Of a stretch of DNA of 64,000 nt, positions 1 to 61,679 are shown piece after piece (the first letter of the stretch is position 1; each line of letters begins with the position of its first letter). A program made the position numbers and the translations under genes. The notes beneath the pieces are model-generated. The model made no database searches and was not told the DNA's origin. It saw nothing but the letters and a program-made list of their open reading frames with translations. This DNA is from Cephalotus follicularis. Lineage: Eukaryota > Streptophyta > Magnoliopsida > Oxalidales > Cephalotaceae. Location of the stretch: assembly GCA_001972305.1 (NCBI GenBank), contig BDDD01001475.1, forward strand, positions 154,751-218,750. Reading direction: 5' to 3'.

Positions 1-196
1 AATAAAACTGAATTTTATTCTTTAACAAACCAATAGGAGGGTATCAAAGAAGGAGTTATCCGTACCTTTGCGTAAACACTAAAATTATCCTCAAGAGAAA
101 ATCAAACAATCCTACGCAGCACTTCCATTGGTACAGTTATCTAAACAATAATTCAAATAAGATATGAGTCACTGATTTATCTAGAACAAAGCCGAA

Positions 197-360
197 GCTG
201 TCGACTCTTTTAACATAAACGTCAACTTGGAAGACAGAGCATCGACACTTTACAAAAATAAAACAAGATGGTGTCAATGCTTTGCATAAACAAAATAGAA
301 TTATTCACAATTGTGGGAAGGTCGACGCTTTGATGAAACAAAGGGGTAAGGCGTCGGCGC
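197..360. repeat. TCGAC-motif array (LTR fragment)
   Basis: TCGAC or one-base variants (TCAAC, TCAAT, TCGGC) begin at 201, 222, 242, 274, 322 and 354. The steps are 21, 20, 32, 48 and 32 bp. The flanks differ from unit to unit, so only the short core is repeated. The same core and spacing recur in other LTRs of this window. Confidence 0.6.
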
Positions 361-454
361 TTACATGAGCTTTGGTGTTTTTACAGTGCTACACGAATGA
401 TAAAGGAGTGAGGCTTAAGACATGTGAGCAGACTAATCTAACTCAACACCCATT

Positions 455-2734: not shown

Positions 2735-4071
2735 TGCTTGTCACACCCCGTATTTCCATTCACGTACAATGGACCAGCATATGTGGTGATATCAGAATTA
2801 AGCATAAAATAATATTCCAGCATTTCAATTAACAACCATAATTAAATTTGCGGAAGCATTCTATAGGCCGGAATATATAAAAACCGTCCGCACGTATCCC
2901 ATACTACGTGCGGGTAATCCAACAATTATCCTTACATAAAAGGAAATACAACATAACGAGCTATGAACCGTTCAAAATCAAATTACAATACAACATCATA
3001 AATGATCAACCTTAAATAACAAAAGATGCTCTCCAAACTTCAGCAGCAGTCTCCAAATGTCTTGCTTAATCTGAAATTGTAGGGGTTAGCCGTTGTCCTC
3101 ACTTGGCTAAGTAGGAAAATAATGCATGCTAAGAAATATATGAATGCAACATGTATGACAGTTTATATCAAAATAACATTTAAATGAGCCAATATAAGAG
3201 CAATCATGCCAAGTGGCCATAAGCAATCCATATGCAAGAATACCGCATAAGGGTACAATCAATTCAACACTCACTTGGGTGTCACATGTCGCTAACTCCT
3301 AGCACCGACTGTGCACCACCTAACTATCACCTTACGCTCTGAAGATGATAGAAAAGGTAACACTTACTACCGACATTGGCGGGTAGTTTAACAATCAATT
3401 TCTGCATTGCAGAACACTGGGGTGATACTCTGGCCAACTCCTGGCACCCAGAATCACGTTCCGTAGTCAATGACAACCTCCGCCACTGAACCACGGCACT
3501 CATAGACAATCAATTCAATCAATTCAGTTCAATAATATTACAGATGTCAATAGTATGCAATATAAAGTAGTTTTCTTTAGAAACTTTGGCAATTCACTAA
3601 TCGTACCTCTCTTCGGAGGAAAACGATATCACTTCGATAATGGTCTCCATTTTGGGAAACAAAACAGTAGGTACCTCTCATATAGGAGGAAAATCAATAG
3701 TTCATTATTCACTTGAAAATGATAGTTGATATCATAATTTGGGTACATAGCCCATAATTAGTTTCCAATCCTTGAATACAAGTGGTAGTGGTGTTAATAG
3801 CACCAAAACAGTATATACTAACAAAACAGTAGTATATTCAGTAACAATATCATAATTCAGTAGCTCTTGTAAACAATGGTTTCCATTTGAAAATAGTCTT
3901 TAAAACCATGAGTTGTATATATAACACATAGTTCGTTCGATCGTTGCAATATAAGTGGTAGAGATGTTAAATAACATCAAACAGTGTACACTATATGGTG
4001 GTAACATATACAATTCAGTAACGGTACCAAACAGTAGCAATTCAATCAATCTTGTGCAATTCTACCCAGAA

Positions 4072-4185
4072 CAGTCGGCTGCTCTCAAGAACCAGTCGAC
4101 TGTTGGGTTGTGTAGTCGACTGCATTGCCTTGGCAGTCGACTGGATAGGTTGAGTAGTCGACTGCCAAGGGTGGCAGTCAACTGC
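4072..4185. repeat. CAGTCGACTG array, 21-bp spacing (element A LTR)
   Basis: Near-perfect 10-bp palindromes (CAGTCGACTG, CAGTCGGCTG, TAGTCGACTG, CAGTCAACTG) start at 4072, 4093, 4113, 4134, 4155 and 4175. The steps are 21, 20, 21, 21 and 20 bp. Sequence between the palindromes is not conserved. Confidence 0.9.
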
Positions 4186-5189: not shown

Positions 5190-5275
5190 TCCAGTCGACT
5201 GGCTATAGTGGGCAATCGACTGCCCTCCTCACGTGGCCACCAGTCGACTGTTACCCTGTGACAGTCGGCTGTTTG
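5190..5275. repeat. CAGTCGACTG array, second cluster in element A LTR
   Basis: Four palindrome copies: CAGTCGACTG, CAATCGACTG, CAGTCGACTG and CAGTCGGCTG. The first two are about 21 bp apart. A diverged piece of this cluster is seen again in the LTR fragment at 9001-9189. Confidence 0.8.
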
Positions 5276-8993: not shown

Positions 8994-9000
8994 CTCTACG

Positions 9001-23430: not shown

Positions 23431-23559
23431 TCCCGGTGATCTAGAGCATAATCTATTAGGGATGTGCAGAGACTGAATGGAAAAATTGTAGTCGTGAGAA
23501 AATTTGTTTCCAAGTCAGCAGAGAAGTGTCTTCCCTTCTTCAAGGTGTTAAGGGACCCC

Positions 23560-24465: not shown

Positions 24466-24474
24466 AATCAAGTC

Positions 24475-28466: not shown

Positions 28467-29441
28467 TGTCACACCCCGTTCCCATTAACGACATACAAGT
28501 CAAGGCAATCAACATAAATCCAGCTTATTTAAAATACGATAAATTTAAAACTTTAAATCCATTAACATCTTGCGGAAGCATTTAAATATAAGCTGAATGT
28601 AAACCAAACCATACGTCCTATACCACATGATTCCAATATTTAATATAGTTATACCATTGTCAACTACCCTCTAATGGAGCGTGATCAAAGTCGATTAACA
28701 TCATTAATACAGTAATCCAAAATAAAACATGTTTTAATACATTGTTTAACATTTATTCAAGTAGATAAACTCCATCTCTCCTCTGATCCGGCCGCACATG
28801 GTCGAAATCCAAGTCACTGCATCAATCTGTAATAGTTGGGGGTTAGCCTTTGTCCTCACTCGGCTAAATCATAAGTGTAATTCAGGGTCAATGATAATGA
28901 ATGTCATGTAATGAATGCATCCATGATGCAATACATAGTATATCACAATACATACATACATATATATATATATAAATCAAACTCATGATGCTCGCACTCT
29001 GTGTTCAGCAATCATGGTAACCCGTGTTACTTGCACGATGTGTCTAGTAACATTGTATTTGGGCGTTCCTAGCCATCTCCTGGCCCCTAGGAAACATCCC
29101 GCCACCAGCCATCGGCGATACTCCGTCACCCCAGCCAGTACGGCATCAATCACAATCAATCAATCTAATCTAATCTAATCGTTTCCAAGTAATTTATAAA
29201 ATACTAGAAATAATACATTTATTTTAAAACGTATTGCATATTTGAAACCGTGTTTTGATCCGTCGAAAACATACATTTATCAAAATATACATTTTCATAT
29301 CAAATAATGATTTGTATAAAATCGTGTACATATTTCTAAAATGAATAAAACACTTTAGAATCATTCACATTTCAATCATCAATTCATTTCATATCAAAAT
29401 GCGATGCAAACATATGCTGAAAATACAAGTCAGTCCCTCAA

Positions 29442-29600
29442 CAGTTGGCTGCCCCTTCATGACAGTCGGCTGTTTCCTTTAAACAGTCGGCTGTCCTGTA
29501 TTTGGTAGTCAGCTGCCTCCATTAATAGTCAGTTGTCTCATTTTTGACAGTCGACTGGCCCTTCAACAGTCGGCTGTCTCCTCAAGACAGTCAGTTGTTT
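29442..29600. repeat. CAGTCGGCTG array A, Tekay-B 3' LTR
   Basis: Cores begin at 29442, 29463, 29484, 29506, 29526, 29548, 29567 and 29588. The steps are 21, 21, 22, 20, 22, 19 and 21 bp. Variants are CAGTTGGCTG, TAGTCAGCTG, TAGTCAGTTG and CAGTCGACTG. The corresponding cluster in the 5' LTR (43680-43860) has one extra unit. Confidence 0.92.
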
Positions 29601-29679
29601 AGTGAACATTACGCCTTTTTTCACATCGCCACTCACCCCAACATTGCCATCTCAGCAAATCCGGGTGAAGTGACACATG

Positions 29680-29912
29680 GACAATCGACTGTCATCCTAA
29701 ACAGTCGGTTGTGCCATCAATTAGTCGGCTACCTTCTCTAGGAAATCGGCTAATCATACAGCAGGAGAAAACCTCCATTAAAATGCATGAACAGTCGACT
29801 GGCTCCTTAGCACATTCGGCTGTTTCCCTCGAGAAATCGGATGTTCGCACTGAACAGTCGACTGGTAGCCTTAAACAGTCGGATGTCCTCTTTGGACAGT
29901 CGGCTGGTCCTA
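29680..29912. repeat. CAGTCGACTG array B, Tekay-B 3' LTR
   Basis: About ten core units from 29683 to 29912, several exactly CAGTCGACTG, with about 21-bp spacing between neighbours and one longer gap around 29750-29790. The counterpart in the 5' LTR is 43938-44168. Confidence 0.85.
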
Positions 29913-30429
29913 CGCACGGTGCACAAAAACAGTAGAAAATACATGCAATCATCAATCCAAATCCAAACACAACAGAGCGTTTATCATCAATAACACATTT
30001 CATGCTCATATCACAGTCCATTGCATGCATTTCATTAATGAACGTCCATTATAACAGAACTTAAATCACATTTATAAAATTTCCCCTACCTTTGAATTCC
30101 AAGTTAGGAATTTCAATCCACCTCTTTAAGTCCCGGATCCAAGGCTTTCAAAGCTCCCAGGTCCGTCCAACGACTCCAACAGGTCCGGCTCTCCCACTGG
30201 TTCGAGTCTCCAAGCTTCCGGTTCAAGTGTGGAGCATTCGGGCTCAACCTCTCTCTCTATTTTCTTCTCCTTTCTTCCTCACAACTCTCTATCTCTTTGA
30301 ATTGCTTATGGGAAGAGGAGAGAAAATGTGTTTCTCCCTCTTCTCTTTCTTTCTTTGTCGACACAAACCCCAAAAATTACTTTCCCCCTGTCATGCCAGG
30401 TCTGGCAGCACGTTATACTGTCTGACCCG

Positions 30430-30558
30430 TGGTAGTCGACTGCTTTGCTTGGCAGTTGGCTACCTCTACTGACAATTTCCAGTCGACTGTTTCCTCAGCA
30501 GTCGGCTGGTACACTAAAGGGGGTCCAGCTGACTGCCTCCCAAGGACAGTCGGCTGCC
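30430..30558. repeat. CAGTCGACTG array C, Tekay-B 3' LTR
   Basis: Six core units (TAGTCGACTG, CAGTTGGCTA, CAGTCGACTG, CAGTCGGCTG, CAGCTGACTG, CAGTCGGCTG). The 5' copy at 44708-44820 lacks one unit. Confidence 0.85.
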
Positions 30559-30708
30559 CACCTAGTTCCCACACATTACACAATTTCCTCTATATTTTTA
30601 TGAAAACTTTAACATACAAGATGGGAAATTCATGATTCTCATTAATTCAAAGAGTAATTTACATCGGGAAATACATCATTACACTTAACGAAAATCCCGG
30701 GCGTGACA

Positions 30709-31506: not shown

Positions 31507-32005
31507 ACCATCGGTCTGTGGGTGAAAGGCAGTGTTAAGGTTCAGCTTCGTCCCAAAAGCTATCTGAAACCTCTTCCAAAAGTTGGAAGTAAAGATCTAA
31601 TCTCTATCACAAACTATACTCACAGGAACATCGTGCAACCCTACTATCTCCTTGATGTATAACCGAGCCAACTTGGTCGCAGAATCTGTGACGTGGGTAG
31701 GCAAAAAGTGAGCCGATTTGGTAAGCTGATCCACAATAACCCACACCGCATTGTGACGGTTTCGAGTCAGAGGAAAACCTGAAACAAAATCCATCGTCAC
31801 ATGCTCCCATTTCCACTATGGAATCGGTAAAGGCTGTAACAAACCCGCTGGCCTCTAGTGCTCAGCCTTAACTGTCTGACAAGTATAACACTTTGCGACA
31901 TAGTCAGCAATCTCTTTCTTCATGCCGGACCACCAGTAGTTCCTTCTCAGGTCTTGATACATTTTTGTGCTGCCAGGATGTAAGAACCCAAATTTCCAAT
32001 TAAGA
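31507..32005 (-). repeat. Duplicated integrase segment, left copy
   Basis: 499 bp almost identical to 32236-32734 (offset 729). By eye three differences are seen, all G here versus A in the right copy. It contains MTMDFVSGFPLTRNRHNAVW and VIVDQLTKSAHFLPTHVTDS plus the first 27 bases of the solo LTR (TGTAAGAACCCAAATTTCC...). It therefore arose after the solo LTR insertion. This copy is continuous with the rest of integrase at 31506. Confidence 0.93.
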
Positions 32006-32235
32006 TATTATTTATGTTTGCTATTGTGTAATTGGCAGATATTTCAAGGGACCCGTAGTATGACCCTACGCTCGGGGAGTACGGGGGTTCCGCTCCCCGG
32101 TGAGCGGACGGGGGGTCCCGCTGCCCGGACAGCGGGCGGGGGGTTCAAAGCAAGAAACAATGAAATGGAATGGGAAGCTCTGATTACTGGATTGACAATA
32201 GTGAAGCACTTAGAGGTCCCTTGAAATAATATCTT
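32006..32235. other. Filler between duplicated segments, with captured Tat-1 fragment
   Basis: 230 bp unrelated to integrase. It contains a GC-rich block (32065-32140, CCCGGTGAGCGGACGGGG and similar) and 77 bp (32141-32217) identical to Tat-1 RNase H 24174-24250 (encoding [16 protein letters not shown]). Its flanks form an inverted repeat: TCAAGGGACC on the left against GGTCCCTTGA on the right, and AAGATATTATTT against AAATAATATCTT. It looks like templated filler from DNA break repair. Confidence 0.85.
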
Positions 32236-32734
32236 ACCATCGGTCTGTGGGTGAAAGACAGTGTTAAGGTTCAGCTTCGTCCCAAAAGCTATCTGAAACC
32301 TCTTCCAAAAGTTGGAAGTAAAGATCTAATCTCTATCACAAACTATACTCACAGGAACATCGTGCAACCCTACTATCTCCTTGATGTATAACCGAGCCAA
32401 CTTGGTCGCAGAATCTGTGACGTGGGTAGGCAAAAAGTGAGCCGATTTGGTAAGCTGATCCACAATAACCCACACCGCATTGTGACGGTTTCGAGTCAAA
32501 GGAAAACCTAAAACAAAATCCATCGTCACATGCTCCCATTTCCACTATGGAATCGGTAAAGGCTGTAACAAACCCGCTGGCCTCTAGTGCTCAGCCTTAA
32601 CTGTCTGACAAGTATAACACTTTGCGACATAGTCAGCAATCTCTTTCTTCATGCCGGACCACCAGTAGTTCCTTCTCAGGTCTTGATACATTTTTGTGCT
32701 GCCAGGATGTAAGAACCCAAATTTCCAATTAAGA
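32236..32734 (-). repeat. Duplicated integrase segment, right copy
   Basis: Second copy of the 499-bp segment, continuous with the solo LTR and, beyond it, with RNase H. Reads [20 protein letters not shown] (zinc-binding region), [11 protein letters not shown] and then DQLTKSAHFLPTHVTDSATK and PVSIVCDRD. Relative to the left copy, the three changes seen are all G to A on the plus strand, the pattern left by deamination of methylated C on the other strand. Confidence 0.92.
32703..32707. repeat. Left target-site duplication of solo LTR
   Basis: CAGGA, repeated exactly at 33822-33826. The pol reading (HP|GSTKMYQ) continues across once the LTR and one copy are removed. Confidence 0.92.
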
Positions 32735-33821
32735 ACCCACTTTGCGATATTATTTATTGCTAAAAGTCGACGCGTTGAAGTTATATGAGTCATTGACAAA
32801 CTGGCTAAAACGAGTCGACGCTTTTCTTGAAGAAGTCGACGCCTTTCGTAGCAGTCGACGTTTTAATCTTAAATGTCGATGCGATGAAGCTATATGCATC
32901 AGTTGACCTAGACAAAGACTTAAAGGAGCCGACGCCTTTCAGAAAGAAGTCGACGTCTTCACTACAAACAAGAGATAAAATCTGACTTTTTGGCATTTTG
33001 TGAGTAAAATTCTTTAATTAGGGACACGTGGCAGGCTAGGGGAAGGTTTTATAAGGTTTTATCTTGGGATCTAACAAGTGCAACACTTGGATTGGTTGAA
33101 AATTAATCACATGGGTTGCCAAGATAAGGTAATTAAGTGTGAAGAAACTTACCCAAGAAGCCATCTCCCTATTTAATGACAAACAATGCATGAAGTCAGT
33201 CATTTTGAGCTAAGGAAGGAAGTGTTTCTGCAGATAAGGAAGTGGAGAATTCATAGTAAGCAATAGAGAAAGGAATTCAAAAGCTAATGTAAGGAAATTT
33301 TCTACCCATTGTTTACAAACATCCCCTGTTTTGACAGCAGCTTATTTTATTGATAACTTCTTCAATTCGTGTTTAAACACCTTACTGAGCTATTTTGAGC
33401 TCATTCCTTTCGATGTTGTGTTTCAAATAAAATGTTTTCAGGAAACAAATGAACGGAGAGTGCGAGCTTGAGGAACCTCTTTAGAAGCAGTTTTTGAGAA
33501 ACAAAGACAATGCGATGATACTCGCACTATATTTTGTTATGAAATATGAATAACGTTTTTCCGCTGTAATATATATGTTTATGTAGAAAAAGGATCCTGT
33601 GTAATGTAGACCTATGACGTGGTCATGACTTTTTTTTTATAAATGTTTATGTGAATTGAAGTTTATGTACGATATTTTCTTTTTTACAAAGTGTACATTT
33701 ATGATGTTATGTACTTATAAAGAAGAGTACCTAAGAATGGAACGTTTCACACCCAACGTAGCGCCACCGATCTTTGGAGTTCGCTTTGAGTTTAAAGTGG
33801 ACTCGGGTCGGGGTCGCTACA
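32708..33821 (+). mobile_element. Solo LTR (1114 bp) inside Tekay-B pol
   Basis: Starts TGTAAGAACCCAAATTTCC and ends GTCGGGGTCGCTACA, flanked by exact CAGGA duplications. It interrupts the RNase H-integrase linker of Tekay-B between SQYSIHP and GSTKMYQ. No internal region or second LTR remains, so it is the product of LTR-LTR recombination. It carries a TCGAC array at 32764-32954. No coding content. Confidence 0.93.
32764..32954. repeat. GTCGACG array in solo LTR
   Basis: Cores: AAGTCGACG (32764), GAGTCGACG (32812), GAAGTCGACG (32831), CAGTCGACG (32851), ATGTCGATG (32872), CAGTTGACC (32900), GAGCCGACG (32926) and GAAGTCGACG (32946). The steps inside clusters are 19-21 bp, with others of 26-48 bp. 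Confidence 0.85.
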
Positions 33822-37361: not shown

Positions 37362-37845
37362 TGTCACACCCCGTTCCATTATAAAACATACAAGTCAAGG
37401 CAATCAACATAAATCCAGCTTATACAAAATACGATAAATTTAAAACTTTAAATCCATTAACATCTTGCATAAGCATTTAAATATAAGCTGAAAGTAAACC
37501 GAACCATGCATCCCATACCACATGATTCCAATATTTAATATAGTTATACCATTGTCAACTGCCCTCTATCGGAGCGTGATCAAAGTCGATTAACATCATT
37601 AATACAGTAATCCGAAATAAAACATGTTTTAATACATTGTTTAACATTTATTCAAGTAGATAAACTCCATCACTCCTCTGATTCGGCCGCATATGGTCGA
37701 AATCCCAGTCACTGCATCAATCTGTAATAGTAGGGGGTTAGCCTTTGTCCTCACTCGGCTAAATCATAAGTGTAATTTAGGGTCAATGATAATGAATGTC
37801 ATGTAATGAATGCATCCATGATGCATACATAGTATATCACAATAC
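37362..37845 (-). mobile_element. 5' LTR of Tekay-B, inner part
   Basis: Starts TGTCACACCCCGTTCC and follows the 3' LTR closely (28467-28955) until 37845, where similarity stops at CACAATAC and SIRE-type copia coding sequence begins. Confidence 0.92.
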
Positions 37846-38551
37846 GTTTATTGGACAAAGAGAAGGCAATGTTTATGTTATTAATTTAAATGACCTTCAA
37901 AATCAAAATGTAAAATGCCTTGTCTCCTTAAATGAAGATAGTTGGATGTGGCATAGAAGGCTTGGACATTTGAGTATGAGAACAATTGCAAAAATTTTGA
38001 AACATGACCTAGTTAAAGGTCTTCCAAAATTGAGTTTTCTAAAAGATAAATTGTGTGATGCTTGCCAACAAGGTAAACAAATAAGAGCAAGTTTTAAACC
38101 TACAAACATTGTTGCAACTTCTAGGCCACTCAAACTACTCCATATGGATCTCTTTGGACCAATAAACATAAGAAGCTTAGGAGGTAAATCTTATGCCTAT
38201 GTTATTGTTGATGACTACACTAGGTACACATGGGTTTATTTTTTAGCACATAAAAGTGAAACTTTTACTTTCTTTGCCATTTTTTGTAAAATTGTTCAAA
38301 AAGAGAAAGGAGTTTCAATTTTGAAAATTAGAAGTGACCATGGCAAAGAATTCGAAAATAATATTTTTGATGATTATTGCATTAAAAATGGTTTTAAACA
38401 TGAGTTTTCAACCCCTAGGACTCCTCAACAAAATGGAGTTGTTGAAAGGAGAAATAGAACTTTGGAAGAAATGACAAGAACAATCTTTGCGAAAATGATT
38501 TACCAAAGTATTTTTGGGCCGAAGCCACAAACACCGCATGCTATATTTTGA
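37846..38551 (+). pseudogene. pol: SIRE-like integrase, N-terminus missing
   Basis: Reads FIGQREGNVYVINLNDLQNQ, then the zinc-binding MWHRRLGHLSMRTIAKILKH with CDACQQGKQIRASFKPTNIV. The core follows: LLHMDLFGPINIRSLGGKSY (Asp), ILKIRSDHGKEFENNIFDDY (Asp) and TPQQNGVVERRNRTLEEMTR (Glu), with the triad complete. The first codons up to 37845 belong to the surrounding LTR, not to this gene. A one-base shift near 38490 moves the frame to the next segment. This wording of the integrase core is characteristic of SIRE/Maximus elements. Confidence 0.92.
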
Positions 38552-39153
38552 ATAGAACATCAATAAGGCCTATTCTCAAAAAGACTCCATACGAGTTATG
38601 GAATGAGAGAAAGCCTAACATTAGCTACTTTCGTGCCTTCGGATGCAAATGTTTCGTTCACAACAATGGAAAAGACCAACTTGGTAAGTTCGATTCTAAA
38701 GCGGATGAAGGTATATTTCTTGGCTACTCTCTCACTAGTAAAGCTTATAGATGTTTCAATAAGCGTACTTTATTAGTAGAAGAATCTATGCATGTTGCAT
38801 TTGATGAGTTACATGATTCTACTTCACATGTTCTTGATAGTATACATTTTCATGAACCTTTGGTGGACCTAGATATAGAACCTAAGGAAAATTACCAAAA
38901 AGAACTTATGGATAAGACTTATAAGGTAGTTAGTGACCACCCATATGAGGCTATCATAGGTGACATTCAACAAGGCATTAGGACTAGATCTAGAGCAAAC
39001 ACTTGTAACTATGTTGCATTCCTATCCCACCTAGAACCCAAGAACTTTGTAGAAGCAGAAAAAGATGAATATTGGATTTTAGCTATGCAAGAAGAGCTAA
39101 ACCAATTTGATAGAAACAAAGTTTGGTTTTTAGTACCTAGACCAAAGGTATAG
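38548..39153 (+). pseudogene. pol: SIRE-like integrase end and RT start
   Basis: Continues in the new frame as LNRTSIRPILKKTPYELWNE, RKPNISYFRAFGCKCFVHNN and KADEGIFLGYSLTSKAYRCF (integrase C-terminus and linker), then GIRTRSRANTCNYVAFLSHL and AMQEELNQFDRNKVWFLVPR (RT N-terminus). A second shift at about 39147 leads into the long RT-RNase H frame. Confidence 0.9.
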
Positions 39154-39164
39154 GAACTAAATGG

Positions 39165-40550
39165 GTGTTTAGAAACAAAATGGATGATCAAGGGACCATT
39201 ATTAGAAACAAGGCTAGACTAGTTACCCAAGGCTATTCACAAGAAGAAGGAATAGACTATGATGAGACATATGCCCCGGTTGCTAGACTAGAATCCATTC
39301 GATTGTTGCTTGCATTTGCTTGTTTTAATAATTTCAAATTATATCAAATGGATGTGAAAAGCGCTTTTTTAAATGGTTTTATAAAAGAAGAGGTGTATGT
39401 TGAACAACCTCAAGGTTTTGAGGACCCTCACTTTCCAAATCATGTTTTCAAACTAAATAAAGCTTTATATGGACTCAAACAAGCCCCTCGTGCTTGGTAT
39501 GAGAGATTGACAAAGTTTTTAACTGGAAACGATTTTAAACGAGGAAATGTCGATATCACTCTTTTTACAAAATCTAAAGGTAATGATCTACTTATTGTTC
39601 AAATTTATGTTGATGATATTATCATTGGATCTACTAATGATTTTTTATGCAAGGAATTTTCAAATACAATGAAATCTGAATTTGAAATGAGTTTAATGGG
39701 AGAGCTCAACTCTTTTCTTGGACTACAAGTCACACAAAATAAAGATGGGATCTTCATCAACCAAAAAAAATATACAAAGGATATTCTCAAGCAGTTTGGG
39801 ATGGAGAATGCTAAAACGAGCAAGACACCTATGAGTACCTCTACAAAGTTTGACAAAGATGAACAAGGTAAATGTATCGATCAAAAGCTTTATAGAAGTA
39901 TGATAGGTTCTTTATTGTACTTAACTGCAAGTAGACCCGATATTTTGTTTAGTGTGTGCTTGTGTGCCCGTTTTCAATCCAATCCTAAAGAATCTCATTT
40001 ATGTGCTGTGAAAAGGATTTTTAAATATCTTGCATACACACCTACATTAGGCTTGTGGTATTCCCGAGACTCTAGTTTTGATTTACACTCTTACTCGGAT
40101 GTCGACTTTGGTGGTTATAAAGTAGACCGCAAGAGCACTAGTGGCTCATGCCAATACCTAGGGAGCATGCTTGTCTCTTGGTTTAGTAAGAAGCAAAATT
40201 CAGTAGCTTTATCCACCACTGAAGCTGAATATATTACAGTAGGTAGTTGTTGTGCGCAAATTCTTTGGCAAAAGCAACAATTGGTTGATTATGGTATATG
40301 TGTTAAGGATGTATCTATTAAATGTGATAATACTAGTAGTATTTGTCTTGCTAAGAACCCAGTCCATCACTCTAGGACAAAACACATTGACATTATATAC
40401 CATTTCTTAAGAGAACATGTAGAAAGTTGTGACATTGTTTTAGAGTATATTCCTACCGAAAAACAAGTGGCGGATATTTTCACCAAACCACTAGATGAGA
40501 ATTCTTTTTCTAAGTTTAGAAAAGAATTAGGTTTATGTGAGCTTGAATGA
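39165..40550 (+). CDS. pol: SIRE-like reverse transcriptase and RNase H, intact 461 codons
   Basis: Longest clean copia frame on the plus strand. RT reads EEGIDYDETYAPVARLESIR, LYQMDVKSAFLNGFIKEEVY, KALYGLKQAPRAWYERLTKF and the active site VQIYVDDIIIGSTNDF with both Asp. The connection NSFLGLQVTQNKDGIFINQK leads to RNase H: LHSYSDVDFGGYKVDRKSTS, ALSTTEAEYITVGSCCAQIL and IKCDNTSSICLAKNPVHHSR. It ends naturally at SKFRKELGLCELE. The first codon shown is a frame entry after a shift, not a genuine start. The catalytic residues look usable, but nothing upstream is. Confidence 0.95.
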   Translation: MFRNKMDDQGTIIRNKARLVTQGYSQEEGIDYDETYAPVARLESIRLLLAFACFNNFKLYQMDVKSAFLNGFIKEEVYVEQPQGFEDPHFPNHVFKLNKALYGLKQAPRAWYERLTKFLTGNDFKRGNVDITLFTKSKGNDLLIVQIYVDDIIIGSTNDFLCKEFSNTMKSEFEMSLMGELNSFLGLQVTQNKDGIFINQKKYTKDILKQFGMENAKTSKTPMSTSTKFDKDEQGKCIDQKLYRSMIGSLLYLTASRPDILFSVCLCARFQSNPKESHLCAVKRIFKYLAYTPTLGLWYSRDSSFDLHSYSDVDFGGYKVDRKSTSGSCQYLGSMLVSWFSKKQNSVALSTTEAEYITVGSCCAQILWQKQQLVDYGICVKDVSIKCDNTSSICLAKNPVHHSRTKHIDIIYHFLREHVESCDIVLEYIPTEKQVADIFTKPLDENSFSKFRKELGLCELE

Positions 40551-40664
40551 TGTTTATTATGTTTGAATGATATGTTTGATTGAATGTTATATTGATGTGA
40601 TGATTTTTTTTTGTTATTGTTCTGTTTTTTTTTTGCTTGATTTTGTGTTCTGCTTTACAAAAAT

Positions 40665-40910
40665 GTCGACTTCTTTTCTGGAAATTCTATGTTTTACAAA
40701 ATCACGTCGACTTCTTTTCTGCAAAACTTTATGACTTACGAAAATCACGTTGATCTCTTTTCGAAAACATCGACCTCTTTGTGTTTCCCTGAAACACGTC
40801 GACTTCTTTTCAATAACGTCGATGCTTTTTAAAACGCAACGTTTTCTGAATCGATTTCTTCCGTTCATTTAAAGAACGCGCCGATTTCTTTTGAATCACG
40901 TCGACGTCTT
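40665..40910. repeat. CGTCGACTTCTTTTC array, internal region of SIRE fragment
   Basis: Between RNase H and the env-position ORF: TGTCGACTTCTTTTCTG, CACGTCGACTTCTTTTCTG, CACGTTGATCTCTTTTCG, ACATCGACCTCTTTG, CACGTCGACTTCTTTTC, AACGTCGATGC and CACGTCGACGTC. Spacing is longer at first (about 43 bp) and then about 20 bp. The orientation is opposite to that of the array in this element's LTR. Confidence 0.8.
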
Positions 40911-40959
40911 TTACTCTATCACCAAATTCGGCTAGAAGGTGAAATTGCAACAAAATTGA

Positions 40960-41447
40960 AGAAAGAGGACACTTACAACAAGAGTACTTTGAATCGGATG
41001 GGGTGGAAAAAGCAAGAAGGGATTTGGACCTATTGCCCCAAAGTTGATCAAGGGCCAAGGATTGCAATTGAATAGCAAGAAGAGAACCCTCCTTGGGAAG
41101 CTCAAGGAGAATCTGCACCTGCTCTGCCTCAAGCTCAAGGAACCTCATCCTCTATTGATTATGACAGAGTGATAGAGTTCGTGCGCTCAAAATTTGATTC
41201 TATGCAAGCTTTGCTTGAAGAGAAATTTGAGCAAGTGAACACGCGGCTCACTAGCTTGGAGAAATATCATGAGATGATTCGCTCCGATTTTGAAAACATG
41301 GATGACACCATCTACTACAATCTAAAAGTCGTAAAGAGGCGTCTAAAAAGAATGGAACGAAAACTTGCCGATTCCAAGACTATTGATGGTTGCGAAGAGA
41401 CTTCTGGCGATGAATCCAATTCCGATGCCCCTCCTGCTGCTGCATGA
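40960..41447 (+). pseudogene. SIRE-like env-position ORF, C-terminal remnant
   Basis: Recognisable from NKSTLNRMGWKKQEGIWTY onward. After a TAG near 41072 it reads EENPPWEAQGESAPALPQAQ and SSIDYDRVIEFVRSKFDSMQ. A long helical, probably coiled-coil segment follows (KFEQVNTRLTSLEKYHEMIR, YNLKVVKRRLKRMERKL), then an acidic end and a stop at 41447. SIRE/Maximus elements carry such an extra ORF after RNase H, often called env-like. No signal peptide or membrane helix is visible in what remains. The N-terminus is lost in the TCGAC array region. Confidence 0.7.
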
Positions 41448-42060
41448 TCTTGTTGTTGTTTCTGTTTTGTTTCTTGTTGCTGTTTTTGTTTTTAGTTATG
41501 TTGTAATGAAACTAAGTATTTATTTATAGTTTTTGTAAGAACAAAGTTTGTTAATGAATTTATGATATTAATGAAATGTTTATGTGTTTATGAAATTATG
41601 TTTATGAGATGATGTTTATACAGTTTTATGAATTATGTTATGATTGTGTTAAATGAATGTGTTTCTCAATTATTGCCGAAAATTATGTTCATTGCCAATA
41701 TTTGTGATATTTTGTGAATAATGCCTATGATCATACTCTTTTCACCCCTGCTTATTTTAAGGGGGAGCTAATGTTTTCTGCCTTTTGTAGAACTTTTTGA
41801 TGCTATACAAAAAAGGGGGAGAATAAGCTCAAAATATGTAAGTATTAAAGGGAGAATTGGGCTCAAGCTCAAGGTTAATGTTAATTTGGAGAAAAGGCTC
41901 ACATATTGGAGAAATTGTTCAAAGAAGCAAAACTTATAGCTTATTTGATATTGCACACTCAATATGATTTTTGCAAGATATCTTTATTTGTTTTCTCTTA
42001 TGTTTTTTAATTGGTATTACTTTGCTTTATGCCTTTTTGAGCAAATTTTTGCATCATCAA
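41448..42060 (+). other. SIRE-like 3' noncoding region
   Basis: T-rich, no gene seen. It includes several short purine tracts (AAGGGGGAGCTAATG near 41760, AAAGGGGGAGAATAAGC near 41813) resembling the terminal polypurine tract, a known habit of SIRE-type elements. Confidence 0.65.
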
Positions 42061-42072
42061 AAAGGGGGAGAT
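42061..42072 (+). other. Polypurine tract of SIRE-like element
   Basis: AAAGGGGGAGAT directly before the LTR start TGTTGACG. Confidence 0.88.
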
Positions 42073-43351
42073 TGTTGACGATTTAGTCTCAATCTTAGTT
42101 TTGATGATAACATATTTACATTTGACAAGTTTACTTGATGTGCAAGAAATTACAAAGTTCAAAACCAAAGCAAAAGTCATCTGCAGAAGAAGACATCGAC
42201 CCTCAACAAATGACATCGACGTCCGTACAGAAAGACATCGATCCCTTTCAAGAAGACATCGACGTCTTTCATGCCAGAAGTTACAGGTCAAATTTGCATG
42301 AAGACATCGACTCCTACAAGCAAAGACATCGACGTCCGTACGAAAGAAGTCGATCCCTATCTGAAAGACATCGACGTCTTTAGGTACCAAAGTTACAGGA
42401 CAATTTCGAGTAATGACATCGATGCTTGTTTGAGAAGACATCGACGTCCGTACAAAAGATATTGACGCCTTTCCATAGACATCGATGCCTTTCTAGAGCT
42501 ACCTGCATTTCCCAGAAAATGCATCGACTCCCACAGAAGAAGTCGATGTGATGTTCAAAGATTCAAATCCTGGAGATTTCCCTGAAATGACATCAACGCC
42601 TTTAAAAAGACATCGACGTCTTTTTAAATGGTTTGACCCGGGAAACATGGAACGGCTAGTACGCACACTTCCAATGGCTATCAACGACCAAAGACATCGA
42701 CGCCTTTTTGAAAGACATCGACATATTTATATTAGGAGACAAAAATCAAAGATTGCAACTACACATGTTTTATATCAAAAGCTTCCATGATTTATGCAAC
42801 GGCTACAAATCTTTTCTGCCTATAAAAGGAAGAAAGAAACCTCAGAAGAACATAGAGAACAACACTGAACTACATCAATTCAATAAGAATCACACAATCA
42901 AGAGAGATTTCATATTCAAGCATTCTAGTGTGCAAAAAGCTCAAAGTGCTCAATAGTGTTCTAACAAGCTTCTAAGCTTTATCCTTTGAGATTTTCTGAG
43001 TGTTTCATATTGAGAGCTGTATTATTCATATCAACCTATTTGAGAGGTTATCTTGTAAACACTTTCACATTTTACTTGTAAAAGAGGAGAATCCTCCAAG
43101 GTCTTGTGATTGAGGTCAATCACGAAGTTGTAAGGTCTAACGAATTGCTGCCTTAATCAATTCGAGATAGTGGAAACTCAAGGAGCTCCCTTGGGAAAAG
43201 TGGACGTAGGCAAGAGTTAGCCGAACCACTCTAAATTCGTAGAAGTTTTTCTTTCCCTTTACTCTTTAAATTTAAAGTTTTTAAATTTCTGATATTTACT
43301 CAATATTCAATTCACCCCCCCTCTTGTATATTGCAAGAGTGTTTTATTTCA
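42073..43351 (+). mobile_element. 3' LTR of SIRE-like element
   Basis: Starts TGTTGACGATTTAG after the polypurine tract and ends GTGTTTTATTTCA at 43351, after which Tekay-B LTR sequence resumes (GGCGACACTCC). TATAAAAGG at 42822-42830 is a good TATA box. It carries the most regular TCGAC array of the window. The right end is inferred from the return of Tekay-B LTR similarity. Confidence 0.82.
42192..42490. repeat. GACATCGACG array with 111-112 bp higher-order period (SIRE-like LTR)
   Basis: GACATCGAC-type cores start at 42192, 42212, 42234, 42255; 42303, 42325, 42346, 42367; 42415, 42437, 42458 and 42478. Inside each group of four the steps are 20-22 bp. Groups are separated by 48 bp, giving a 111-112 bp higher-order unit whose four members differ in flank (for example the second always continues GTCCGTAC). 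Scattered pairs follow to about 42725. Confidence 0.93.
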
Positions 43352-43679
43352 GGCGACACTCCGTCACCTCAGCCAGTACGGCATCAATCACAATCCATCA
43401 ATCAAATCAAATCTAATCATTTCCAAGTAATTTATAAAATACTGAAAATAATACATTTATTTTAAAATGTATTGCATCATTAAAACCATGTTTCGATCCA
43501 TCGAAAACATACATTTATCAAAATATACATTTTCATATCAAATAATGATTTGTATAAAATCATGTACATATTTCTAAAATGAATAAAACACTTTAGAATC
43601 ATTCGTATTTCAATCATCAATTCATTTCATATCAAAATGCGATGCAAACATATGCTCAAAATGAAAGTCAGTCCCCCAA

Positions 43680-44168
43680 CAATCGGCTGCCCCTTTATGA
43701 CAGTCGGTTGTTTCCTCATGACAATCTGTTGTTTCCTTTAAACAGCTGGCTGTCCCGTATTTGGCAGTCGGCTGCCTCCCTTAACAGTCGGATGTCTCAT
43801 TTTTGACAGTCGGTTGCCCCTTTAACAGTCGGTTGTCTGCTCAAGACAGTTGGCTGTTTCGTGAACAGTACTCCTTTTTTTTACTTCGCCACTCACCCCA
43901 ACATTGCCATCTCAGCGAATCCGTGTGAAGTGACACGTGGACAGTCGACTGTCATCCTAAACAGTCGGTTGTGCCATCAATCAGTCGGCTGCGTTCTCTT
44001 GGTAGTTGGCTAATCATACAACAGGAGAAAACCTCCATTAAAACACATTTACAGTCGACTGGCTCCTTAGCACAGTCGGCGGTTTCCCTCGAGCAGTCGG
44101 CTGTTCACATTGAACAGTCGACTGGTAGCCTTAAACATTCAGCTGTCCTCTTTGGACAGTCGGCTGGT
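43680..44168. repeat. CAGTCGGCTG arrays A and B, Tekay-B 5' LTR
   Basis: About 20 core units in two clusters, matching 29442-29600 and 29680-29912. A unit GACAATCTGTTGTTTCCTC near 43721 has no counterpart in the 3' LTR. Confidence 0.88.
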
Positions 44169-44707
44169 CCTACTCGCGGTGCATAAAAATAGTAGAAAAT
44201 ACATGCAATCATCAATCCAAATCCAAACACAACAGAGCATTTATCATCAACAACACATTTCATGCTCATATCACAGTCCATTGCATGCATTTCATTCGTG
44301 AACGTCCATTATAACGGAACTTAAATCACATTTATAAAATTTTCCCTACCTTTGAATTCCTAGTTAGGAATTCCAATCCACCTCTTTAACTCCCAGATCC
44401 AAGGCATTCAAAGCTCCCAGGTTCGTCCAACGACTCCAACTGGTCTGGCACTCCCACTGGTTCGAGTCTCCAAACTTCCGGTTCAAGTGAGGAGCATTCG
44501 GGCTCAACCTCTCTCTCTTTTCTTCTCATTTCTTCCTCACAACTCTCGATCTCTTTGAATTGCTGATGGGAAGAGGAGAGAAAATGTGTTTTATGGAGAA
44601 AATGCGTTTCTCCCTCTTCTCCTTCTTTCTCTGCCAACACAAACCCCAAAAATTACTTTCCCCCTATCATGTCAGGGCTGGCAGCACGTTATACTGTCTG
44701 ACCCGTG

Positions 44708-44820
44708 GTAGTCGGCTGCTTTGCTTGGCCATTGGCTACCTCTGCCGACTGTTTCCTCAGCAGTCGGCTGGTACACTAAATGGGGTCCAGTCGACTGCCT
44801 CCCAAGGACAGTCGGCTGCC
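44708..44820. repeat. CAGTCGACTG array C, Tekay-B 5' LTR
   Basis: Counterpart of 30430-30558 with one unit fewer (the CAGTCGACTGTTTCC unit is fused to its neighbour). Confidence 0.8.
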
Positions 44821-44969
44821 CACCTGGTTCCCACACATTACACAATTTCCTCTATCTTTTTATGCAAACTTTAACATACAAGTGGGAAATTCATGATTCT
44901 CATTAATTCAAAGAGTAATTTACATCGGGAAATACAAAATTACATTTAACGAAAATCCCGGGTGTGACA

Positions 44970-46007: not shown

Positions 46008-48165
46008 TGATGGAAACGGAAAAACCGAATCCGGTGCCAAAATCGGACTCAGGCATATAGGGTGTAGAACAAAGCAAAAACATACAAACATGGCAACGGA
46101 AGAACAACCAATAAAACAAATGCAGTCCATAAAGGCATGTCCACAGACCACATGGATCACCACATCATCAATAGAATTGAATTGGTGTCACCGTAGCATA
46201 CAATGGTGACACACTATCATGGCAAGAAGAGAAGGACCAAGACATATACCAGCGGGTGAAGTCTCCTTCTTTCTCTGCCGCTACACGCTTAGGAAGACAC
46301 CAAACACGTTGCTTCCAAAATCCCTGGTACAGAAGCTACTAGTGTATGAACTCTCTCTCTCTCACCAAGCTTAGAAAAAGTAAATTGATATTGACCGAGG
46401 ATGTCAAAATCAATCCACCCTAGATAAGCACTTGCTTGATGTTTAACAATGAAGGGAACACAAACAATCTGCAGAGAGAAATTCGACTTTTTTTCTTTTC
46501 CCAGCAAAAACTCTACTCATTTCTTTTTTTAATTACATTTTCTGCGGAAAATACTTATCACTAGTCTCCTTCTTCTCTCTCCCACTCTCCCATTCACTTA
46601 GGATCATGGTCCTCACTCCTAGGGAGTCTGTGGCCATGATCTCCACGTTCCCATAACATGCAAGAATGGGAGATGGCTGCTGGAGATGAGAGAGAAAATG
46701 TGCCCATGAAGTGAGCTCGTGCACAGGTTGCACGTTCTGCTCAAAGACGTCGCGCCTTCCAAAGGACATCGACGCTCATGCAATGTGGCACTAAGAACAT
46801 CGACTCTTTCTATAAGACATTGACGGCTATAAAATCATTAAGCATCGACATCTTTGTAAAAGACGTCGACGCTTTGTTTGGCAAGTGAAAGAATTAGAGT
46901 CTAACTCTTTTAATGATCTCATGTACCCTTCAAATATTGGTTAAGTAAGATCAAACATATGCGTTTCCACAAAATGCAAAATCCACATAACCGATATTTG
47001 ACACCAAGACTTAATATGTCCAACATATTAAAGAACTAATCATTATAAGGCAGGGACCCTTTAAAATCTTGGTTAAGACAATAGGTGTTCATAAATTACC
47101 AAAATACCCCTAGGGTCCGGTTTAGCCATTCTAAATGGTCTTTGACCAATTTAAATGCTATTGGAATAATATCCAAATATTATCCAGATGGAAAAATTAA
47201 TCTAATTAATTTTCCCATAATTTATTACACACCTCATAAACCCTAAATTTTCTAAGTCGTCGGTTCACGTGTACTATAATCCCTTGTCATGCTTGGCCCC
47301 GATTGAGGTCTAGGGTAAGGATATGTGTCAACCCTAGATAATACCTCAATGACTAAAATATCTGATCATTACTAGGACCTTTGGTAAACTTTCCAAAAAT
47401 ATAATTTCCAGTCTACCTCAACCTTGGCCAAGGATTTCATAAGTCCAAAGTATAATCAGATCATAATAGAGTCGATCAGCTTCTCTCAGGTGTGACAATC
47501 CCATATTACGCACTAACTTATATTCGTACAGATTCGATCATACCCAAAGACCGCCTGATTGCCAGCCCTGCGCAAGGACTAGGTAAGGTGGAGATCAAAG
47601 TATAACCGTTTCCATACAATATAGAGTAATCGCTCAGGTCTAAGGATCAGACGAGTTTGAGAACTCGCTAAGTGATGATCACTTATACACAACCGCAACA
47701 AGTAGGAGTCACTATTGACACGAGAAAAGCGACTATCCAAATAGTGTCTCCTACGCGGGTCCAGTTCAATGCACACGTTCATAGCACGCACCCCGTATTT
47801 TCCCTAGTGTCCAACACATATGGTAGTGAGAGAATCCATCCTCCAATTCCATGAGCAGGCAACATACGTGCAAGTCTATCCGGTTCACTAATGCCCACAA
47901 AGTGAACCTATGACTTGGAACTAATTTCACATAAGGAATAAGGTAACCTATCTCACAGCCTCCATGCTAGGAATCCAACCTTATGTCAGGGCATCACAAG
48001 TGTAAGCAAGTAAATAACAAACTCCTTCAATTAAGTGATAAAACACAAGTGATATTGCCATAACAAAGTAGCACACATCATATATAAGGAATAAGATTGT
48101 GTCATACAAGATAAGATATAAAATGACAACCCATCTAATGGCTTGTCGGGTCACTAGATCTAACA
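46008..48165 (-). mobile_element. copia-2 3' LTR (2158 bp, complete)
   Basis: The plus strand starts TGATGGAAACGG and ends CTAGATCTAACA, i.e. TGTTAGATCTAG...CCGTTTCCATCA on the minus strand. The right edge abuts the polypurine tract. The left part aligns with the 5' LTR 54010-55197, with a 23-bp indel near 46337 (54340-54363). The TCGAC array is at 46746-46870. Confidence 0.92.
46746..46872. repeat. GACATCGACG array, copia-2 3' LTR
   Basis: Cores at 46746 (GACGTCGCG), 46765, 46796, 46816, 46841 and 46862 (GACGTCGACG). Steps are 19, 31, 20, 25 and 21 bp. The array is repeated in the 5' LTR at about 54776-54902. Confidence 0.88.
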
Positions 48166-52727: not shown

Positions 52728-53525
52728 CAATAGCGCAGGAACACTACTCAACGAAAATTGTGGAAGGCCACGGGGAACCACTCCATGGGTTCCTACGTTA
52801 AGACTTATTATTAAAGTGAGGGAATTTGCGGTCTCAAGTTTTAAATACCATGCCATTAATTAATTCATTGGTTGTATTAGCCAATTCCAATTAATTACGG
52901 CTTAGCATGCAAGACGTGTATCTTATGCACCTTGGACATATTTCTAAAATATGTCAATGGATTGGCAAGGACATTAGTAGTAGTGACTTGAGCCCAAAAT
53001 CACTACTAGGTCTTCCTAGGTGTAAAGATTTAAATCTATTTATTACAACAATAACCATGCATACATGGCCTTCAAAAATCTTGTACTCCATTTCTCCTTG
53101 CCTCCATCTCTCCTTGTAAGGTCTTCTTTTACATAAAAGTACTTTACATTTTGAAAAGGGAATTACATTTAAAAATTACAAGAAGAAATAACAAAAGTAA
53201 GAAAAAATAAATGGTGCACGCAGGCACCTTATTACAGACCTTTAAAATAATAAATAAATAACATTCATCCACACATAGAAAACCATAAACTCGGTCAATG
53301 TCCTTTTTTGAGTCATCCATTGTGCATAAGACTTATATAATATCCAATATTATAAAACACAAATAAAACAAATGCCGTAAATAATAACCAATTTTACAAT
53401 TTAATTTAAGAATTGTTAACTGATCAAACTCCCACTAAATCAAGCAATGATTTTTTATTTTATTTTCTAAGTGCCGAAATGTATAAAATCTAATTTTATT
53501 GAAAAACAGTTTGTTTTTAACAAAA

Positions 53526-53711
53526 GACGTCGACGCTTCCCAGAAGGCGTCGACGCATTTCACGAAAACTGTTGAAAAAGGCATCGACGTTTATCAACAA
53601 CATCGACGCGTTTTCTGGGAATAGATGAACAAGATATCGATGCGTTTCAAGAGCATCGACGTGTTTCACGAGAAGATGAACAAGACATCGACGTCTATCA
53701 AGAACGTCGAC
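53526..53711. repeat. CATCGACG array in copia-2 leader
   Basis: Cores at 53526, 53546, 53580, 53599, 53633, 53652, 53684 and 53703. The steps are 20, 34, 19, 34, 19, 32 and 19 bp, a strict alternation of about two and about three helical turns, giving a 51-54 bp double unit. It lies about 290 bp downstream of the priming site, in the packaged RNA. Confidence 0.9.
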
Positions 53712-53996
53712 GTCTATAACCCCCTGGGCAGTTTCTGCATTTCAAAAAATGCAGAAAATAATAGTTTAGACTTTGGCATTCCAATCTGGCAATCCAAACT
53801 GTACTATGCATGTTCCAAACATAATCTAAACACATTAAAACAATATCCCCAAGACAAAAACACAATGAAATCCAAATTCATGCAATTTTCACTAAGGCAC
53901 TTTGAAAATCTAGTTTGATCATAAAACATCTCCAGCAATTAAACCGTTAATCAGTTCGTCATCTAAAGCATAAATTCAATCAAGATGATGTGGGAC

Positions 53997-54009: not shown

Positions 54010-55197
54010 TGATGGAAACGGAAAAACAGATTCCGGTGCCAAAATCGGACTTAAGCATATAGGGTGTAAAACAAAACAAAAACATACAAACATGGCAGTG
54101 GAAGAACACCCAATAAAACAAATGCAGTCCATAAAGGCATGTCCACATACCACATGGATCACCACATCATCAACAGAATTGAATTGGTGTCACCATAGCA
54201 TACAATGGTGACACACTAGCATGGCAAGAAGAGAAGGACCAAGAGATATACCAGCGGGTGAAGGCTCCTTCTTTCTCTGCCGCTAGACGCTTGGGAAGAC
54301 ACCAAACACGTTGCTTTCAAAATCCCTGGTACAGAAGCTACTCCAACCTGCAAGAACCAAGAACCAAGTGTATGAACTCTCTCTCTCTCTCTCACCAAGC
54401 TTAGAAAAAGTAAATTGATATTGACCAAGGATGTCAAAATCAATCCATCCTAGATAAGCACTTGCTTGATGTTTAACAATGAAGGGAACACACACAATCT
54501 GCAGAGAGAAATTCGACTTTTTTTTCTTTTCCCAGCAAAAACTCTACTCATTTCTTTTTTTAATTACATTTTCTGCAGAAAATACTTATCACTAGCCTCC
54601 TTCTTCTCTCTCCCACTCTCCCATTCACTTAGGATCATGGTCCTCACTCCTATGGAGTCTATGGCCATGATCCCCACATTCCAATAACATGCAAGAATGG
54701 GAGATGGCTGCTGGAGATGAGAGAGAAAACGTGCCCACGAAGTGAGCACGTGCACAGGTTGCACGTTCTGCTCAAAGACGTCGATGCCTTCCAAAGGACA
54801 TCGACGTTCGTGCAATGTGGCCCTAAGAACATCGACTCTTTCTAAAAGACATCGACGCCTATAAAATTGTTAAGCATCGACGTCTTTCTAAAAGACGTCG
54901 ATGCTTTGTTTGGCAAGTGAAGCAATTAGAGTCTAACTCTTTTAGTGATCTCATGTACCCTTCGAATATTGGTTAAGTAAGATCAAACATATGTGTTTCT
55001 ACAAAATACAAAATCCACATAACCGATATTTGACACCAAGACTTAATATGTCCATCACATTAAAGAACTAATCATTATAAGGCATGGACCCTTTAAAATC
55101 TTGGTTAAGACAAGAAGTGTTCATAAATTGCCGAAATACCGCTAGGGTCCGGTTTAGCCATTCTAAATGGTCCTTGACCAATTTAAATGCTATTGGA
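54010..55197 (-). mobile_element. copia-2 5' LTR, outer 45% missing
   Basis: Starts TGATGGAAACGG and follows the 3' LTR to AATGCTATTGGA at 55197 (compare 47163), then stops. About 1.0 kb of LTR, including its outer end and promoter region, is absent. Confidence 0.92.
54776..54902. repeat. GACATCGACG array, copia-2 5' LTR
   Basis: Six cores matching 46746-46872 (GACGTCGATGCC, GACATCGACGTTC, AACATCGACTC, GACATCGACGCC, GCATCGACGTC, GACGTCGATGC). Some cores differ between the two LTRs by single C/T changes, e.g. GACATCGACG versus GACATTGACG. Confidence 0.88.
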
Positions 55198-58960: not shown

Positions 58961-59059
58961 CAGTTTTCTTGCCTCTACGGGGCCTCGGGTAAAATCCCGT
59001 TCCTCATCCAGTTGATGAATGGAGTCATCCAGTTTGGCTCATGTGGTAAGTCTATGTCC

Positions 59060-61059: not shown

Positions 61060-61207
61060 ATTTGCAATAGGAAGTACCTTTTTCCTTCCCTTTATCCATA
61101 ATGGCTATCTTGTAGCACTGTCTTGCCGCCTGTTGATCTCCTCTGGCTTCCCCCACGCCAAACCTCATAGGGAACTTCATCAATAAGTGTCTCGTGGACA
61201 CTATCAC

Positions 61208-61623: not shown

Positions 61624-61679
61624 AGCAAGGGATTTCCTCCCATAGGCTTTTCTGGCATTCTTATGGTCGCCACCAGACG

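Follow-up and report, generated by a model that had tools for sequence, protein, structure and literature searches.

The promoters of SV40 and HTLV-1 carry 21-bp enhancer repeats, in which transcription-factor sites stand two turns apart upstream of the promoter. In plants, the closest described structures are the RM boxes of Sireviruses, palindromes that Bousios et al. (2010, PMC2829016) found in high number at two places, the part of the LTR above the TATA box and the linker that precedes ENV. According to the available text of that paper, the boxes are linked with CpG islands, some of them are centred on TCGA (Vitis CGGTCGACCG, Tnd-1 ACAATCGATTGT), and the RM is Sirevirus-specific and absent from classic Copia elements. 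The same text proposes only database-predicted stress factors for the RMs and calls for experiments. It makes no mention of regular spacing: the terms 'periodic' and 'bp apart' are absent, while 'spacing' and 'helical' occur in the reference list only. Sirevirus work from 2016, as described in the available parts of PMC5311732 and PMC10760457, proposed that clusters of LTR palindromes are cis-regulatory and are also hotspots of small RNAs.

The 64-kb window examined here, that is, the whole stretch of DNA that was analysed, holds nested LTR retrotransposons of plant type, and these element types suggest that it is plant DNA. Palindromic boxes with a TCGA or TCGG centre are present in the LTRs, and in some internal non-coding parts, of several element families: a Tekay-type Gypsy element in two diverged copies (Tekay-A and Tekay-B), a Sirevirus-like Copia element, a second Copia element (copia-2) and one unclassified LTR-like fragment. 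An earlier note on this DNA had described them as TCGAC-type cores repeated at regular steps in LTRs of unrelated families. Our results favour, with somewhat more confidence than doubt, the view that these arrays are cis-regulatory clusters of sites bound by putative host proteins.

Elements and box arrays of the window

Superfamilies were called with Pfam, run on ten open frames, and the names Tekay and Sirevirus-like were given tree-free, from landmarks and resemblance. Only retroelement domains were detected among the ten frames, one of which had no family at all. The lineage name Tekay was assigned by resemblance, and we take Del and Tekay to be one lineage. A member was expected to combine a Gypsy-type RT with LTRs of the form TGTCACACCC ... 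GGGTGTGACA; RVT_1 and the Tekay-B LTR ends are present, the Tekay-B LTRs being bounded by TGTCACACCC and GGGYGTGACA.

The 3' LTR of Tekay-B (28467..30708, minus strand) has the ends TGTCACACCC ... GGGCGTGACA, and the 5' LTR (37362..44968, minus strand) is split by the Sirevirus-like element at 37846-43351. Each holds two arrays on the minus strand. In the 3' LTR, array 1 (29441..29906) has twelve boxes, CAGTCGGCTG-like for the most part, and array 2 (30432..30556) has five, at steps of 47, 19, 27 and 21 bp, the box at 30530 scoring below the shuffled maximum. In the 5' LTR, fifteen boxes form array 1 (43679..44166) and five form array 2 (44708..44818). Also inside Tekay-B, at 31504-32734, lie two 502-bp copies that are 99.2% identical and separated by 227 bp. 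A 77-bp stretch at 24174-24250 recurs identically at 32141-32217, within that 227-bp gap, and is possibly a recent small insertion or copy.

The Tekay-A LTR starts at 2739 and has an approximate right end near 5400. Array 1 (4071..4184, minus strand) consists of six CAGTCGRCTG-type boxes at steps of 21, 20, 21, 21 and 20 bp, and array 2 (5191..5271, minus strand) of four boxes at 21, 28 and 21 bp, which align with Tekay-B 44741-44818. In the region 2723-5400, a primer-binding-site-like word adjoins this LTR on its left and minus-strand pol frames lie on its right; internal sequence thus seemingly flanks the LTR on both sides, an arrangement that seems to resemble tandem elements joined by recombination. 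At 8993-9190 there are further short stretches that match the Tekay-A LTR, perhaps an LTR remnant, with two Tekay-type boxes 21 bp apart (9012 and 9033) that score below the shuffled maximum.

The Sirevirus-like element (37846-43351) is of Copia type, with a Copia-type RT (RVT_2, E 9.9e-78 by Pfam), and its 5' end was not recognised. Tracts of AGGGGGAG occur at 41760, 41814 and 42063 and nowhere else on the plus strand; all three precede the 3' LTR (42073..43351, plus strand), and the last is followed by ATTG at the LTR start. A TATA box, TATAAAAG, stands at 42821, below the box cluster, of which the last box has its centre at 42719. Landmarks of this kind (polypurine tracts, attachment site and TATA box) have been reported for Sireviruses in the available text of PMC2829016. 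The LTR array (42188..42728, plus strand) comprises eighteen boxes with the consensus AAAGACATCGACGYCTTT and includes a 111-bp internal duplication. A further nine boxes form a linker array (40660..40911, plus strand) upstream of a coiled-coil-like open frame, the candidate ENV.

The second Copia element, copia-2, lies on the minus strand between LTRs at 46008-47165 (3') and 54010-55197 (5') that are 92.5% identical, and it has RVT_2 and a Copia-type gag by Pfam; no AGGGGGAG tract is found at its 3' LTR junction. The two Copia elements are distant, with an identity of 34% over 423 aa between their RT frames. A third Copia frame (14707-15435) is 62% identical over 216 aa to the RT frame of copia-2 and 50% identical over 119 aa to that of the Sirevirus-like element. 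Six boxes occur in the copia-2 3' LTR (46739..46876, TCGA being retained in four) and six in the 5' LTR (54773..54908). Another eight lie in the leader, the interval between 5' LTR and gag (53522..53717), where steps of 19-20 bp alternate with steps of 32-34 bp; all three arrays are on the minus strand.

The unclassified LTR-like fragment carries seven boxes (32762..32957, plus strand) and a TATA-like TTTTATAAGG near 33050, which was seen by eye and not caught by the TATA pattern. At the left edge of the window, a cluster with no assigned strand (196..361) has up to six weak boxes. Three of the six sites have TCGA, and the cluster is at most a candidate array in a putative LTR. Elsewhere the earlier coordinates proved right, for Tekay-A, Tekay-B, the fragment (then called a solo LTR), the Sirevirus-like LTR and copia-2. 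They had not covered the linker array at 40660-40911, the continuation of the Sirevirus-like LTR array to 42728, or the second Tekay arrays at 5191-5271, 30432-30556 and 44708-44818.

Three further repeats of the window may be recorded. A 115-bp unit is duplicated exactly in tandem at 1412-1642. A minisatellite at 10622-10983, with a 28-bp unit in about 13 copies, lies inside a 190-codon open frame; its step is not two turns. The regions 21323-26682 and 57022-62301 are related in opposite orientation, with pieces 75-80% identical; self-comparison gave no LTR pair for them, and they have no lag-21 signal.

None of the 13 array segments is overlapped by an open frame of at least 180 aa. In the Sirevirus-like LTR, about 100 bp separate the end of the array from the TATA box TATAAAAG below it, and the copia-2 arrays lie in the LTRs and leader, the TATA pattern finding nothing in the copia-2 LTRs. 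Tekay-B has two TATA candidates, each conserved in both LTRs (30076/44336 and 29198/43436). If the former is used, there are arrays on both sides of it; if the latter, both arrays are upstream. The observed/expected CpG ratio is 1.32 in the Sirevirus-like LTR array against 0.40 in the rest of that LTR, 1.62 against 0.33 for the copia-2 LTR and 1.82 against 0.73 for the fragment, and it reaches 2.51 in the linker array and 2.11 in the leader array. The Tekay arrays, at 0.50-0.80, are not above the rest of their LTRs (0.70-1.04).

Box sequence and spacing

The window holds 144 copies of TCGAC, where 100 shuffles lead one to expect 61 (sd 8). The boxes come in two flavours. The Copia flavour, with the consensus AAAGACATCGACGYCTTT, is an imperfect 18-bp palindrome with 18 sites in the Sirevirus-like LTR, 9 in the linker, 8 in the copia-2 leader and 6 in each copia-2 LTR; the linker boxes of the Sirevirus-like element have a variant right half. 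The Tekay flavour, CAGTCGRCTG, is a 10-bp palindrome with 10 sites in Tekay-A and 17 and 20 in the Tekay-B LTRs. The seven sites of the fragment at 32.8 kb have a box intermediate between the two. The TCGAC-type core of the earlier note does not describe most boxes of Tekay-B, which are CAGTCGGCTG-like; TCGA is present there in 6 of 17 and 4 of 20.

With a matrix from the boxes of the copia-2 5' LTR and leader, 30 outside places scored above the best of 8 shuffled windows, and all 30 lie in listed arrays (14 in the Sirevirus-like LTR, 7 in the linker, 4 in the fragment, 1 at the left edge and 4 in the other copia-2 LTR). The Sirevirus-like-trained matrix gave one match above the largest shuffled score, 24.3, which is a single outlier among 8 shuffles (the remainder reached 9.8-15.7); all of its top 27 matches outside its own LTR lie in listed arrays. 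The Tekay-A-trained matrix found 21 places, 20 of them in listed Tekay-B arrays and one, at 30551, extending an array. There were no Tekay sites among the 40 best matches of either Copia-trained matrix, no Copia sites among the 40 best of the Tekay-A matrix, and no match between Tekay LTRs and Copia arrays in the LTR cross-comparison. A single motif common to both superfamilies, as had been supposed, is thus not borne out: the Copia and Tekay matrices miss each other's sites, and NYCGRN at the centre is all that is common. A common box is found in both Copia elements and the fragment, and Tekay shares only its centre. Since the matrices do not cross-detect, more than one protein may be involved.

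Of 107 sites, 86 contain RYCGAC on one strand or both, compared with 46 of 1,375 other CGs, a difference that is partly circular, and so descriptive, since the sites were picked by motif. The recognition motif of a barley CBF/DREB activator is (G/a)(C/t)CGAC, according to the title of a reference cited in PMC4971604, and it fits the same 86 of the 107 motif-selected sites. Mimicry of the W-box TTGAC by 5-methylcytosine in TCGAC is no more than speculation and was not retained.

The regular recurrence of the boxes at 19-22 bp is confirmed by mechanical scans that are free of by-eye choices. We scanned for CAGTCGRCTG with up to one mismatch and for GACRTCGAYGYC with up to two, and considered adjacent spacings of up to 60 bp. 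The first scan gave 44 sites, with 24 of 31 close adjacent spacings at 19-22 bp, and the second 39 sites, with 14 of 23. When the window was shuffled ten times, either pattern matched only 0-4 sites per shuffle, and no spacing of 19-22 bp arose. In ten curated array segments, a set that omits LTR partners, the range of 19-22 bp takes in 43 of 69 adjacent spacings (7, 13, 20 and 3 at 19, 20, 21 and 22 bp; mean 20.4), whereas random placement over the same spans with a 14-bp minimum gave a mean of 11.5 and a maximum of 24 in 20,000 trials. These site lists were curated by eye. Weak candidates at 32916, 42269 and 42682 and the isolated 30018/44278 were omitted, the left-edge centres were moved by a few bases, and boxes 30530 and 30551 (spacings 27 and 21) were recognised only later. 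The curated spacings are all 19 bp or longer, a minimum that would be compatible with a protein footprint of some two turns; the omitted weak candidates would yield some shorter spacings (9, 14 and 16 bp).

A motif-free lag scan of the 13 array segments ranked lag 20 or 21 first or second in nine, the exceptions being the left edge, array 2 of Tekay-A (TekA2), a Tekay-B segment (TekB5b) and the copia-2 leader (53 first, 19 second). In a blind lag scan of the whole 64 kb (200-bp windows, z >5), the two Tekay-B LTRs alone gave a lag of 21 (z 6.0 and 6.4), and the other arrays are therefore visible through their boxes and not through overall repeat similarity. It had also been claimed that all cores lie on one face of the helix. 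This goes too far: the 26 curated spacings outside 19-22 bp prefer multiples of 10.5 bp weakly (P=0.039), and some, at 25, 28, 47 and 48 bp, fall out of phase. With the remaining spacings so weakly phased, we reject the idea that every box keeps a strict helical register.

Possible constraint on the boxes and competing explanations

Within the arrays tested, boxes are better conserved than spacers, with the exception of the copia-2 LTR, where three spacers reach an identity of up to 0.83, equal to that of the boxes; the test covered Tekay-A array 1, Tekay-B, the fragment, the Sirevirus-like LTR and copia-2. Spacers had been thought to lack conservation altogether. This is so in Tekay-A array 1, with a spacer identity of 0.26-0.29 (expected 0.27) beside a box identity of 0.88, and is not so in Tekay-B, the fragment, the Sirevirus-like LTR and copia-2, where spacers are above random and tandem duplication has therefore contributed. 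A comparison between elements was possible for Tekay-A array 2 (21, 28, 21) and Tekay-B array 2 (19, 27, 21), where, in an alignment of this single array that was anchored on the boxes, 35 of 38 box positions are identical (2 gap columns) and 14 of 41 spacer positions are (10 gap columns). This retention is the best evidence for a putative constraint on the boxes.

Taken alone, the spacing of any one array is weak evidence of constraint, since the LTR pairs have few indels for their number of substitutions (6 per 120 and 4 per 59). In a simulation of neutral tandem-repeat decay at the observed indel rate, 7% of runs kept all five spacings of Tekay-A array 1 at 20-21 bp, and 1.6% did so at a higher rate. 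The evidential force of the spacing would lie instead in the recurrence of the same step across families. Common descent of whole LTRs is ruled out as the source of this recurrence between families, as had been argued before: among up to six listed matches per pair of LTRs, cross-family matches lie in the arrays, and only Tekay-A and Tekay-B also match outside them. Within LTR pairs, boxes show no less divergence since insertion than the remaining LTR sequence. This rules out purifying selection by the host on genomic copies; these copies being unprotected, any selection acts on active elements.

If the arrays are clusters of host-protein binding sites, a dimeric or otherwise symmetric host DNA-binding protein would recognise the palindromic box with its YCGR centre or, should the boxes be unrelated, a few proteins would do so, the Copia and the Tekay box each having its own. 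Local duplication would multiply the boxes, and selection on active copies would keep them. The centre-to-centre step of about two turns would put neighbouring proteins side by side on one face of the DNA, which may allow cooperative binding, and the bound array would serve as an enhancer for the element promoter and, in the Copia elements, perhaps as a CpG island too. It is a more doubtful proposition that, in this plant, both superfamilies converged on rows of YCGR palindromes at two-turn steps that are read by the same host protein family. If this were true, unrelated elements would share one switch for waking up or escaping silencing. Few of the host proteins on which plant retrotransposons depend are known. 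A near-identical Copia box, a Tekay box of the same kind and a two-turn step would provide a cheap probe for such a protein, an oligonucleotide of 42-63 bp. It would also show whether a single host signal acts on unrelated transposons, and whether the arrays carry regulation to nearby genes.

An effect on chromatin is an unlikely alternative. The boxes would then be bound either by a host factor directing methylation or demethylation or by an anti-silencing protein that the element itself encodes, in the way that VANC proteins act on the tandem-repeat targets of VANDAL transposons. The targets of VANC are short motifs that accumulate in tandem repeats of non-coding parts, according to the available text of PMC5735166 and PMC10398659, and the Copia arrays are CpG-rich. 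However, similar boxes in different families fit a host factor better than an element-encoded protein, Pfam found no candidate gene among the ten open frames, and sites that silence an element should be lost by it.

It is also conceivable, if improbable, that the arrays act in the transcript, by folding into hairpins that become small-RNA hotspots, as reported for the LTR palindromes of maize Sireviruses. All ten arrays tested fold below shuffles (z -2.1 to -9.2), compared with -1.6 to +0.7 for four control LTR segments, and when spacers were shuffled around fixed boxes, the native sequence still folded better in two arrays, the left edge (z -2.25) and Tekay-A array 1 (z -3.0). For Sirevirus palindromes, the available parts of PMC5311732 and PMC10760457 report small-RNA hotspots. 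Yet seven of nine arrays showed no gain in folding over versions in which only the spacers had been shuffled (|z| <2). This test is weak for the Sirevirus-like LTR and copia-2, since boxes of 18 bp were held there and not much spacer remained to vary. As the boxes alone account for folding in these seven, the hairpins are mostly a by-product of the palindromes, and RNA folding is rejected as the sole cause; nor does pairing give any reason for a two-turn step. Given the maize data, it is plausible that small RNAs arise from the array hairpins.

A functionless origin, with repeats of about 21 bp produced by replication slippage and now decaying as a minisatellite, seems to us quite improbable. 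The above-random spacers of Tekay-B, the fragment, the Sirevirus-like LTR and copia-2 point in this direction, as do the 111-bp duplication in the Sirevirus-like LTR and the low indel rates, which let spacing persist. Against it, conservation is higher in boxes than in spacers, both within tested arrays (except the copia-2 LTR) and in the one array compared between the two Tekay copies. Slippage also leaves the box shared by two distant Copia elements unexplained, and the genuine minisatellite of the window (10622-10983) steps by 28 bp. It is very improbable that the presence of arrays in several families records transfer of a segment between elements, by recombination of co-packaged RNAs or nested insertion, and not repeated selection for the same protein. 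In favour of transfer, the Sirevirus-like and copia-2 LTR arrays can be aligned with 65-69% identity over 87-173 bp, and the 18-bp box, down to an asymmetric position, is common to both. Against it, alignments of similar score are obtained in several registers and on either strand, as a periodic palindrome predicts, the boxes are oppositely oriented relative to the two elements, and the Tekay boxes have different flanks.

Comparison with known systems

The papers found on the exact decamer included none on a retrotransposon, LTR or palindrome, judged by title or the start of the abstract, and searches on RKD/RWP-RK motifs, GTCGAC in LTRs, Tekay palindromes and Sirevirus or Gypsy CpG islands gave no such arrays among the matches listed, as far as the available text of these goes. 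Among viral contigs, a two-box pattern scan gave 5 stretches, which is chance level by a rough estimate, and three protein-based scans gave 32, 1 and 9 pattern matches, none of which was confirmed as a relative.

The repeats of SV40 and HTLV-1 differ from the arrays described here in their factors and hosts and in having far fewer copies. VANDAL elements resemble them in having short, protein-bound motifs that are multiplied in tandem in non-coding transposon parts and evolve fast; the VANC motif YAGTATTAY differs in that it is not palindromic, reaches high density in a single family and has its binding protein encoded by the element (PMC5735166, available text). Cruz et al. (2014, PMC4029996, available text) described plastic CpG islands in Del (Tekay) elements, and the likeness lies in a variable regulatory LTR region in the Del lineage. 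Eudicot Del LTRs are without a CpG island in that account, and the Tekay arrays here are likewise not CpG-enriched; the string 'palindrom' is absent from its main text. The maize Sirevirus motif, CACCGGACNNNGTCCGGTG, differs from the boxes of this window in the text available. Judging from the same partial sources, a palindrome shared by different kinds of element is not without precedent.

The closest likeness is to the Sirevirus RM boxes. The Sirevirus-like element has the same layout, with 18 LTR boxes and 9 linker boxes upstream of a candidate ENV frame. The published RMs except Tnd-1 carry a CGG-CCG signature, in the available text, whereas the boxes here read ACATCGACGY or AGTCGRCT, and a CGG-CCG core is found neither in the Copia consensus AAAGACATCGACGYCTTT nor in the Tekay box CAGTCGRCTG. 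Boxes are also not restricted to Sireviruses: they occur in copia-2, which has no AGGGGGAG at its 3' junction, and boxes of a related kind occur in the Tekay elements, with their RVT_1. The arrays are most likely related to the Sirevirus RM boxes and are present here outside Sireviruses as well. Relative to the literature, in the parts of it that were available, what is new is the box sequence, its presence in a Copia element without the Sirevirus tract, the related boxes in Tekay elements and the two-turn step.
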